Notes under the pieces: model-generated
Databases searched by the model: none
Seen by the model: the letters and a program-made list of their open reading frames with translations, nothing else
Told to the model about the DNA's origin: nothing
In this document: positions 278 to 7,188 of the stretch, piece after piece
Position numbering within the stretch: the first letter of the stretch is position 1
Layout of the letters: every line of letters starts with the position of its first letter
Assembly (NCBI GenBank): GCA_002762865.1
Contig: PCYE01000021.1
Location: 1 to 40,716 of the forward strand
From: Candidatus Woesearchaeota archaeon CG10_big_fil_rev_8_21_14_0_10_33_12
GTDB taxonomy: Archaea; Nanobdellota; Nanobdellia; Woesearchaeales; CG1-02-33-12
DNA length: 40,716 nt
Direction: 5' to 3'
Position numbers and translations under genes: made by a program

Positions 278-751
278 TCAGTCTAATAGTTTTATATGCT
301 CTGGCTTTGTGAAAAAATCCTCTTTTTTTAGGTCCTCAATAATAAAGAATTCTTTTTTCTTTTTTATCTTAAATTTTTCAAGGCTATCAGAAAATTCCTC
401 AAACCCTTTCATATCTTTAAATACTGCTTCAACAAAGAAATCAAAGCTATTGTTAAGCCTTAATATGGAATTTATATTCTTATTTTCCAATAAAAAGTCT
501 TTAAGCTCCTGCTTTTTTTTATTATTAGCTTCTAATACAAAATTAATTCTTAATCCAAAACCAAGCTTCTGAAAGTCAAGCAGTGGGGAATATTTTGATA
601 TTGTATTTTTTCCAAGCTTGCCTACTTTATCAAAAACAGTTGATATTGGAATCCCTGTTTCGCGACTTATCATTGTAAGGCTTTTCCTTGAATCTGCTCT
701 TAAGTGTGTTAAAATCAATAACTCTTTTTTTGTCAGCAACAATCTCACCAA
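278..751 (-). CDS. Lrp/AsnC-like winged-helix transcriptional regulator
   Basis: N-terminal HTH (SRKSLTMISRETGIPISTVFDKVGKL) plus Lrp-like C-terminal region; paralogue of the ORF at 4258-4734. Confidence 0.7.
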   Translation of the reverse strand: MVRLLLTKKELLILTHLRADSRKSLTMISRETGIPISTVFDKVGKLGKNTISKYSPLLDFQKLGFGLRINFVLEANNKKKQELKDFLLENKNINSILRLNNSFDFFVEAVFKDMKGFEEFSDSLEKFKIKKKKEFFIIEDLKKEDFFTKPEHIKLLD

Positions 752-4257: not shown

Positions 4258-4734
4258 CTATCCTATTATTTCCAAAACAGTTGGATCACTCATAAAGCAT
4301 TCCCTCTTTATGTCATCTATAACATAATATACCTGCCTGTCCTTTATGTCAAATCTTTGCTCAAGATTTTCTATGAAATCCTCCATATCCTTTATATGCT
4401 TGAAAATAGCATCTATCATAAAATCCCCATTATTTATCTTGCAGACAGAGTTTATATTCTGGTGCTTTATCAGATAATCCTTTACTTCATCTCTTTTATT
4501 CTTGTCAACCTTTAATACGATATTTGCCCTTGTGTTAAAGCCAAGCTTTGAGAAATCCAGCAAGCTTGTGTATTTGGTTATAACATCATGCTCATGCAGC
4601 TTTAGCTTATCATATATAGTTGATACAGGGATATGCGTCTTCCTGCTCAGCCTTGTCAGTGTTTCCCTTGCATTCTGCCTTAAATAAGAAATAACTACCA
4701 AATCTTTTTTATTCATCATTTTTTTAGCCTCCAT
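4258..4734 (-). CDS. Lrp/AsnC-like winged-helix transcriptional regulator (paralogue of 278-751)
   Basis: NARETLTRLSRKTHIPVSTIYDKL HTH; aligns along its length with the first regulator. Confidence 0.7.
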   Translation of the reverse strand: MEAKKMMNKKDLVVISYLRQNARETLTRLSRKTHIPVSTIYDKLKLHEHDVITKYTSLLDFSKLGFNTRANIVLKVDKNKRDEVKDYLIKHQNINSVCKINNGDFMIDAIFKHIKDMEDFIENLEQRFDIKDRQVYYVIDDIKRECFMSDPTVLEIIG

Positions 4735-4916
4735 ATATTCTCTATAATTTTTGTAATATCTTTGTTCAGAGATTCACTGAAATATAAAGGTTTTTTAGCA
4801 AAAAAATCTGAATGTTTCAGAAAAATCCTGAAGCATTTAAAAACAAGAGGCATTATTAAGCAATATTTTCTCTGAAACAAAAACATTTATATAGTTGTTA
4901 GTATTATGAAGTAGTT

Positions 4917-6533
4917 ATGAATCAAACTGAGTATAATCTGCTCTTATTTTTCAAAAAAAATCCTCAAAAAGAATTCTCCACAACAGATATACTAACCAAT
5001 ATTTTCCCAGATGAATATAAAAATATAGAAGAAATATTCAAGAATCAATTTGCAGATAAACAGATGCTTAACAAGGCAAAGAGAAAAAAAGGCCAGCTTC
5101 ACAGAAAAATCCTTTACTATCTGAACAATTTAGTAGAGGAAGATATACTAAAAATAAGCAAACAGGGCAACAAAGGGGAAAAATATTTTGTTCTTTCATT
5201 AGAACAAGGAGAAGAACTTATTATCAATAAATCAAAAAGAAAAATCATTATATCAAAACCAAGCATGCCTGCAATGCCTATAGACGGCTATGAGCAAAAA
5301 AATATTGCTGCAAGATTTGAATCAGCAACATGGATTGACAGACTAAATTCCATTTTATTAGAGACTACTAAATTCAGAAACATTAAAGACCTCTATAATA
5401 CAATAAACAAATGCTTCTCAAACATTAATGATGTCATTGGATTAAATGACTTTGAATCTGTAATACAGACTAATGAGCTTAATGAATCCTTATCTTTCCT
5501 CAGAAAGATTAATTCCGAGTGTGTAGATTATGGGAAAAAGCTGAGCTGCATAATAGACATAACAAACCTTAAGAAAGAGAAAACCAATAAAGTAATTGAA
5601 TTTATTAAAGAGTACAGTGATATGCACTCTGAGAACATAACTTTAATATTTGATGTGAGGAGTAAAGAGCTACAGGAGCACTCTGATTTTTTTGAATGTA
5701 TTATTGATATTTTTATAAACTCCAAGATAAGAATATACATAAAAAACCAGGATCTTTACTGCGCTCCATATATCTTGGGCAGGATTGGTCCATATTGCTT
5801 TGATGAGAATGAATGGCTTATTTATAAAAAAGAGTTTCAGAAAAAAAGTTACGGCCTCGCATGCTCTCAATCAACAGTTGTAGTTGATGTTAACAGGTTT
5901 TTCAGGGAATCCAATGATATTAAACAATTTAGGCTTTTTATTAAAAATATTGTTAAATCCTTATTGTCTGCAAATTCCTTGCAAAGAAGAAAATCAGACG
6001 AGTATTTTAAAAACATTGTTAAACTGACATTCCCCTATGTAAAGGAGTTTTTTACTTTAAGCAGAAATTATATCAGGTTCTGGAATTATGGCTGGAAAGA
6101 GCCGAACCTAAACCAAAATTATGTTATTGAACTTATAAAAAGCACAAAAGAAGAAATTGATAATTTCTGTGTGTCAGAAGAAACTATTTACAAATCATGC
6201 GGCATGCCAACACGATTTAAGGTTGCATTTTCATGCCTTTTCAACGGATCAAAATTTAAATTTAGCAAGGGATTATTTCATAAAACAGAGATTAAAAAAC
6301 TGGAAGACCTTTATTCAAAAGAGATAGAGGAATTGCTTGGTGTGAAAGAGGAGATCTTTCAGGCATTTGATGGTGGAGATAGGTCAAGGTTTTACAGAAC
6401 AGGAAAAATAAATTCAAAGGATATCTGCCGTGAGTTTAATATAATCCTAAAAACCTATAAAATTCCTTTCTTTTGTTATGACTTCGCTAAAATAAAAGGA
6501 GCGGATATAAAACTTACAACTTTCATAGGGTGA
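4917..6533 (+). CDS. 538-aa protein with N-terminal winged-helix-like region, family unknown
   Basis: long clean ORF; N-terminus NQTEYNLLLFFKKNPQKEFSTTDILTNIF...LHRKILYYLNNLVEEDILKISKQGNKGEKYFVLS is wHTH-like; 4-nt gap to the TS-like gene. Confidence 0.8.
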   Translation: MNQTEYNLLLFFKKNPQKEFSTTDILTNIFPDEYKNIEEIFKNQFADKQMLNKAKRKKGQLHRKILYYLNNLVEEDILKISKQGNKGEKYFVLSLEQGEELIINKSKRKIIISKPSMPAMPIDGYEQKNIAARFESATWIDRLNSILLETTKFRNIKDLYNTINKCFSNINDVIGLNDFESVIQTNELNESLSFLRKINSECVDYGKKLSCIIDITNLKKEKTNKVIEFIKEYSDMHSENITLIFDVRSKELQEHSDFFECIIDIFINSKIRIYIKNQDLYCAPYILGRIGPYCFDENEWLIYKKEFQKKSYGLACSQSTVVVDVNRFFRESNDIKQFRLFIKNIVKSLLSANSLQRRKSDEYFKNIVKLTFPYVKEFFTLSRNYIRFWNYGWKEPNLNQNYVIELIKSTKEEIDNFCVSEETIYKSCGMPTRFKVAFSCLFNGSKFKFSKGLFHKTEIKKLEDLYSKEIEELLGVKEEIFQAFDGGDRSRFYRTGKINSKDICREFNIILKTYKIPFFCYDFAKIKGADIKLTTFIG

Positions 6534-6537
6534 TTAT

Positions 6538-7188
6538 GTGGAAATAAAATCCGAGACAATAATGGGTGCCTGGAAATCCAGCTTAAAATATATACTTGAA
6601 TCTGGAAAGGATTTTACAGATGAGAATAATAGAATTTGCAGAGAAGTATTGAATCTTGTTATAGAAGTTAAAAATCCCAAGGATGATATTACAAGAGCTG
6701 TTGAAATACTAAATAGTTTTAAGAAATGGGTTTATCCTCCTTTGGATGAAATAGCTGACCTTATCCTATCAAGAAAACTCTCACCAACATACTCTTATTC
6801 ATATGGGCCGAGACTCTTTAATTTTCATAATGCAATAAATCAGATTGATAACTTCTTGATTCCACTTCTTAAAAGGAATAGTTTTTCCAGAAGGGGCACT
6901 GTTCTTATATGGAACCCTATACAAGATTCAAATATTTATAAAAGAGATGTTCCTGGCTTGATAAGCATTGACTTTAAGATAAGGAAGCAAAAACTTAATG
7001 CAACCATGGTTGTTAGGAGCAATGACCTTTTCTTTGGCTGGCCGGCAAACCTCTACCAACTCTTTGTATTGCAGGATTACATAGGAAAAAAATTAGGATG
7101 CAAAACAGGCTCTTTAACAACATTCTCAAACAGTGCGCATATATTCAAGGACCAGTTTGAAGACATCCAGCAAGTTACCTTAGATTAG
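6538..7188 (+). CDS. thymidylate synthase/dCMP hydroxymethylase-fold protein lacking the catalytic cysteine (start is GTG)
   Basis: YSYGPRLFNFHNAINQIDNFLIPLLKRNSFSRRGTVLIWN...DVPGLISIDFKIRKQKLNATMVVRSNDLFFGWPANLYQLF...HIF aligns by eye to ThyA YGxxWR/QI/SRR/PCH/RSxDxFLGxPFN/HLY. Confidence 0.75.
   Translation: MEIKSETIMGAWKSSLKYILESGKDFTDENNRICREVLNLVIEVKNPKDDITRAVEILNSFKKWVYPPLDEIADLILSRKLSPTYSYSYGPRLFNFHNAINQIDNFLIPLLKRNSFSRRGTVLIWNPIQDSNIYKRDVPGLISIDFKIRKQKLNATMVVRSNDLFFGWPANLYQLFVLQDYIGKKLGCKTGSLTTFSNSAHIFKDQFEDIQQVTLD

Follow-up and report, generated by a model that had tools for sequence, protein, structure and literature searches.

Two adjacent genes of a woesearchaeal archaeon, from a group whose members are tiny and uncultured, probably encode a transcription regulator that would sense nucleotides and control both its own operon and a divergent gene for an Lrp-like protein; both of its components would be catalytically dead versions of dNTP-synthesis enzymes. 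The probability assigned to this reading is about 0.6. One product, TS*, has the thymidylate synthase (TS) fold without the catalytic cysteine, while its partner, wHTH-RNR*, is predicted to join a winged helix to a barrel of the ribonucleotide reductase (RNR) type. The two genes, named the module hereafter, lie in the window, the whole stretch of 40,716 nucleotides that was analysed, with the following features.

4258 to 4734, minus strand: divergent gene of a Lrp/AsnC-like regulator of 158 aa (NCBIfam TranRegLrp_Halo, E 1.4e-14, below cut-off).
4765 to 4781, no strand assigned: candidate operator dyad 1, a conserved dyad TTCAG-N7-CTGAA (TTCAGAGATTCACTGAA), followed directly by ATATAAAG.
4808 to 4832, no strand assigned: candidate composite operator CTGAA-N3-TTCAG-N7-CTGAA (CTGAATGTTTCAGAAAAATCCTGAA), with no other exact match in this genome.
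4872 to 4878, plus strand: half-site CTGAAAC, just upstream of the TATA-like element of the wHTH-RNR* gene.
4886 to 4893: TATA-like element TTTATATA of the wHTH-RNR* gene.
4917 to 6533, plus strand: wHTH-RNR* gene, 538 aa, with a predicted winged helix (residues ~1–93) and an RNR-type ten-stranded barrel (~143–522), from AlphaFold2, Foldseek and conservation.
6538 to 7188, plus strand: TS* gene, GTG start, 216 aa, TS fold without catalytic Cys, from Pfam, NCBIfam, AlphaFold2 (pLDDT 92.4), Foldseek and the orthologue alignment.
6955 to 6957, plus strand: codon ggc of TS*, encoding Gly140 where E. coli ThyA has Cys146, from profile and family alignments.

The first-pass annotation had described the product of 6538–7188 as a TS-fold protein whose nucleophile Cys is changed to Gly. 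The open reading frame, the Pfam and NCBIfam matches, the predicted structure and the alignments all agree with that description. TS* matches PF00303 with an E value of 3.3e-17 (63 bits, above the gathering cut-off of 24.3) and the archaeal TS family TIGR03283 with an E value of 2.3e-41, the score of 141.5 bits being below the curated equivalog cut-off of 174.55. A PDB sequence search also yields TS-fold proteins. The PDB structures nearest to the TS* model in Foldseek all belong to the TS family (AfhB, MilA, ThyA). The closest is the phage dCMP hydroxylase AfhB (9iqu/9iqc), described as flavin-dependent; AfhB and the CMP hydroxymethylase MilA both keep the Cys, unlike TS*, and AfhB has an Asp in the N177 region where TS* has Asn. 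Gly140 aligns with the Cys of the MilA VAC motif in the profile alignment, and its column in the family-wide alignment is that of the Cys in ThyA “PPCH”, archaeal TS “PCL” and viral “IPCL”. The residue after the nucleophile site (E. coli H147) is also lost, Leu, Ile or Met being found in its place.

Cysteine is found at this site in none of the 51 distinct TS* orthologues (Woesearchaeota and relatives, all loci pooled), which rules out a sequencing error or chance. The site is occupied by Gly in 34 sequences, Ser in 14 and Ala in 3; the loss of Cys is thus clade-wide, while conservation of the Gly itself, the other point raised by the annotation, is partial. No substitute conserved Cys was seen in the orthologues. 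The proposal that substrate-binding residues are kept was borne out by the same alignment, with equivalents of R126' (49), R127' (44), R166 (51), S167 (49), D169 (45), N177 (49) and H207 (50) in 44 to 51 of the 51 sequences. The Y209 equivalent is Phe in 42, and the invariant polar residues include R160 and G167. The dN/dS ratio of the gene is 0.04–0.12. In a maximum-likelihood tree that has some long branches and a bootstrap not fully settled, TS* forms a single clade (support 97/94) nested among Cys-bearing archaeal TSs, and the Cys was therefore probably lost once in its ancestry.

Archaeal TSs (TIGR03283/PF00303, including the MtrA-TS-PterinBD(DUF4346) fusions) resemble TS* in the full-length TS fold, the short form of ~200 aa and the retention of the phosphate-binding Arg/Ser, Asn177 and His207. 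TS* differs from them by the change of Cys to Gly, Ser or Ala, by the loss of His147, by its score under the TIGR03283 cut-off, by the lack of a pterin-binding or MtrA domain and by its constant pairing with wHTH-RNR*. A PF00303 search of 118 related genomes separated three main kinds of proteins, namely canonical ThyA (PPCH), MtrA-TS-PterinBD fusions (PCL) and the short TS*. Note that PF00303 matches in these genomes must not be tallied as thymidylate synthases. The fusions, in which an MtrA-like domain precedes a TS domain that keeps its Cys and a PterinBD-DUF4346 region, occur in many genomes of the order (L048–L061, L067, L071, L076, L079; domain make-up checked in several of these loci), which suggests pterin-linked archaeal TS enzymes. 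Two short TS-like proteins with Cys, LPCI in L035:5030-5752 (G003) and VPCV in L077:4767-5399 (G011), sit on long branches beside TS*. A viral origin of TS* was considered and rejected: IMG/VR scans gave one TS relative only, the short protein of L258:5001-5615, which has retained the Cys (IPCL) and lacks an RNR* partner on the stretch examined. It is the nearest viral relative of TS*, and its contig also encodes a family-B DNA polymerase.

The link to the upstream gene that had been suggested proved to be absolute in the genomes searched. Among the 118 relatives, an orphan gene for a protein of ~540 aa lies upstream of the TS* gene on the same strand in 28 of the 28 TS*-bearing genomes, and these 28 are also the only ones in which a search of whole genomes recovers the partner at full length. 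A GTDB scan with the partner alone gave 38 loci, nearly all from Woesearchaeota/Nanoarchaeota MAGs, and TS* is found downstream in each of the 38. The genes are direct neighbours in most loci, spaced mostly by -8 to +6 bp, the exceptions being L102, where two genes are inserted, and L129, which has a 477-bp gap. In the phylum sample the partner is present in 36 of 371 genomes, two of which are outside the order.

Searches of Pfam, NCBIfam, PHROGs and PDB sequences gave no significant match for the partner. Its AlphaFold2 model, built with 39 orthologues (pLDDT 88.7), was compared by Foldseek to the PDB, where the best matches are the NrdD structures 4u3e/4com/4coi (E 1.6e-8, probability 1.00, TM 0.46), the top seven are all RNRs and glycyl radical enzymes follow; a viral structure library again returned RNRs. 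According to the model, the barrel is an RNR fold closest to class III NrdD, its ten predicted strands matching those of T. maritima NrdD. An hhalign comparison with NrdDs of the same order is weak (score 25.9, E 0.025–0.11, second half collinear), standing 1.8 sd above shuffle controls whose mean is 19.1 (sd 3.8, maximum 28.2). With sequence homology suggestive at best, the assignment is founded on structure prediction.

The partner departs from NrdD at both ends of the chain and in the active site. Its amino terminus is winged-helix-like in the model, with weak matches to the Fur wHTH, and an ATP cone was not found there, Pfam giving no match. The winged-helix domain has conserved basic residues (K58, H62, R63) and wing residues (G87, K89). 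The finger loop has no conserved thiyl Cys, as Cys occurs in at most a quarter of the 51 RNR* sequences at any column of the region 278–312; LGRxGPY is the sequence that links strands E and F, where true NrdDs have MCCRL. The glycyl-radical motif RVxGY is absent, the chain ending ~16 residues past the last barrel strand. Six residues (R387, W389, N390, Y391, G429, E478) are invariant in 51 of 51 sequences, and dN/dS is 0.06–0.10. On the predicted structure, the partner reads as a dead RNR mounted on a DNA-binding domain.

The region upstream of the pair carries the palindrome TGTTTCAG-N7-CTGAAACA, often extended to CTGAA-N3-TTCAG-N7-CTGAA. Among the 35 GTDB loci whose upstream sequence reaches 300 bp or more, TTCAG-N7-CTGAA is found in 25 promoters versus 0.02 expected from shuffling, CTGAA-N3-TTCAG in 15, and control motifs of wrong order or reversed in none. 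The 118 genomes were searched for the palindrome with spacers of 6 or 7 bp; the 6-bp form was dropped on account of its many matches, chance-like in look, which left the 7-bp spacing and the composite for the counts. Of the 28 module genomes, 18 contain TTCAGN7CTGAAAC; it stands at the module promoter in 17 of these, and there are four sites elsewhere. The composite sits in the module promoter of 10 genomes, at one other intergenic site and at five sites within ORFs of module-less genomes. The words CTGAAA/TTTCAG number 2.74 per 360 bp in module promoters, versus 0.26 in promoters of Lrp-like paralogues and 0.47 in other promoters. The conserved motif is thus nearly confined to the module promoter.

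This promoter region is usually shared, an Lrp-like orthologue being divergent and adjacent to the wHTH-RNR* gene in ~27 of the 35 loci. In the window a second Lrp-like paralogue is encoded at 284–736 (minus strand), 3.5 kb from the first, and tandem Lrp-like copies beside the module are common in relatives. The neighbourhood raises the alternative that the Lrp-like regulator is the protein acting on the operator and that its target is the operon of wHTH-RNR* and TS*, whose role would be metabolic or allosteric, such as the formation of mixed oligomers that modulate real RNR or TS. Autoregulation is frequent among Lrp proteins, the two true NrdDs of this genome are possible partners, and the only intergenic composite site away from the module (G043:C18:54091-54115, L206) lies between a small ORF and another Lrp-like gene, upstream of the latter. 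The regulator may thus have a second target there. Against this alternative, the promoters of Lrp-like paralogues in module-less contexts have no motif, the motif is kept in L110, L121 and L128, which have no adjacent Lrp-like gene, and RNR* has a conserved winged helix of its own. The first two observations indicate that the candidate operator tracks the wHTH-RNR* gene, which favours, without proving it, autoregulation by wHTH-RNR*. Ownership of the operator by the Lrp-like protein is considered unlikely, although it is the strongest of the competing explanations.

A regulator is favoured because the partner joins a winged helix to a dead RNR-like barrel and because the promoter of the operon has a conserved palindromic candidate operator. 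Read most simply, the two proteins would be a metabolite-responsive pair with a winged helix for DNA and two dead nucleotide-enzyme pockets for ligand. The winged helix of the partner would bind the palindromes of the operon's own promoter, common in most loci to the Lrp-like gene, while ligand sensing would fall to the inactive RNR barrel and TS pocket, presumably brought together in a physical complex. Retention of the phosphate Arg residues, Ser, Asn177 and His207 in the absence of the Cys suggests that TS* binds a nucleotide, probably a pyrimidine nucleotide (dUMP or dTMP) held non-covalently; a ribo- or deoxynucleotide is the probable ligand of the RNR barrel. The ligand state would alter DNA binding, so that the pair would regulate both itself and the Lrp-like gene; the latter, as output, may pass the signal further.

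The initial suggestion had left the choice between a sensor, a regulator and a new chemistry; the partner's winged helix and the promoter palindrome favour the regulator, and the last option is disfavoured. It would make TS* and RNR* subunits of an active enzyme with a Cys-independent, new nucleotide chemistry, the winged helix serving assembly or another role. The many invariant polar residues of both proteins (R387, W389, N390, Y391, G429 and E478 of RNR*, R160 and G167 of TS*) would fit an active site, and TS folds can take other chemistry, as in the 9iqu/9iqc hydroxylase. That precedent keeps its Cys, however, as does the nearly identical RB69 ORF048c (YPCT, with Asp in the N177 region). 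The TS* site varies between Gly, Ser and Ala, RNR* has neither the finger-loop Cys nor the glycyl radical, and the conserved candidate operator together with the winged helix indicates regulation. As both proteins lack residues that their parent enzymes require, such an activity appears improbable, slightly more so than ownership of the operator by the Lrp-like protein.

Genes for working dNTP enzymes accompany the module. An RNR match of class II or III is present in each module genome, and most of these genomes have ThyX or ThyA. A second thyA or thyX, the presence of which had been raised at the outset, is missing here and present in several relatives: this genome (G000, 94% complete) gave no other PF00303 gene and no ThyX match, the same-genus genomes G001–G004 have ThyX in its double-domain form, and canonical ThyA coexists with TS* in G007, G008, G020, G080 and G094. 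Given these relatives, the absence in G000 may reflect assembly loss or salvage. That TS* stands in for the missing synthase by means of a displaced nucleophile would account for the gap in G000. The enzymes present in the relatives and the lack of any alternative conserved Cys in TS* make this very improbable. Note that ThyX often has ~520 aa with two tandem Thy1 domains (G001–G004, G021, G070 and others).

An NrdR-like gene, recognized by eye from its CPYC...CLKC...RRRR zinc-ribbon pattern, lies directly upstream of nrdD in this genome and in G002. In nrdD promoters of these genomes the CTGAA/TTCAG words are scattered and form no operator array. With this and nrdD having its own NrdR-like gene, a dNTP regulon of the module was not seen. 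The presence of real RNR, of ThyX or ThyA and of the NrdR-like gene argues that the pair is neither a substitute enzyme nor simply a missing RNR regulator. Paired ACACAA-N4-TTGTGT-like palindromes, noticed by eye in the nrdD promoters of L144, L152 and L159, are probably NrdR boxes. A split class III RNR was also observed at L153:1144-3299 (G002:C14), where the NrdD ORF stops before the glycyl-radical motif, which is found on a separate 42-aa ORF right behind it (MKTKCEVYSRVVGYLRP...), followed by a radical-SAM activase-like ORF; similar split NrdD places are found in G005, G007, G013, G017, G021, G028, G083, G085 and G090.

Decay of TS* to a pseudogene or a sequencing or assembly error, at which the loss of a catalytic residue by itself could hint, is refuted by the residue class that 51 distinct sequences of independent genomes share, by the intact operon order and by dN/dS values well below 0.15.

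Transcription factors built on dead enzyme folds are represented by NrtR, with an inactive Nudix domain, and by MocR/GabR, with an aminotransferase fold. wHTH-RNR* resembles them in the fusion of a wHTH to an enzyme fold, probably a metabolite sensor, and in the palindromic operator (a candidate one here) at its own promoter; it differs by having an RNR barrel rather than a Nudix or aminotransferase fold and by its obligate, separate second pseudoenzyme TS*. NrdR is a nucleotide-linked transcription regulator of RNR genes. The proposed pair would share this linkage with NrdR, which is, unlike the pair, a Zn-ribbon and ATP-cone protein and whose NrdR-like counterpart is separately encoded here. 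To our knowledge no dead-enzyme transcription factor has an RNR or TS fold or consists of two partners. A literature search, mostly outside subscription papers, found no description of such an RNR*/TS* pair. A winged helix with a dead enzyme as metabolite sensor is thus a known kind, while an RNR barrel or a TS in that role, and likewise a pair of dead enzymes from one pathway that are retained jointly, were found in no report.

A more specific and tentative idea is that RNR* and TS* form one sensor that reads ribonucleotide reduction and thymidylate formation at once, tuning growth or replication to nucleotide supply via the candidate operator and the Lrp-like gene. This single sensor would belong to reduced, probably host-dependent archaea and, if the idea is correct, would represent a class of nucleotide-responsive transcription regulator without known precedent. 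The regulator reading as a whole, if true, would show how genome-reduced archaea sense DNA precursors, and would make of an orphan protein family and of TSs without Cys a regulator that can be tested on a defined operator.
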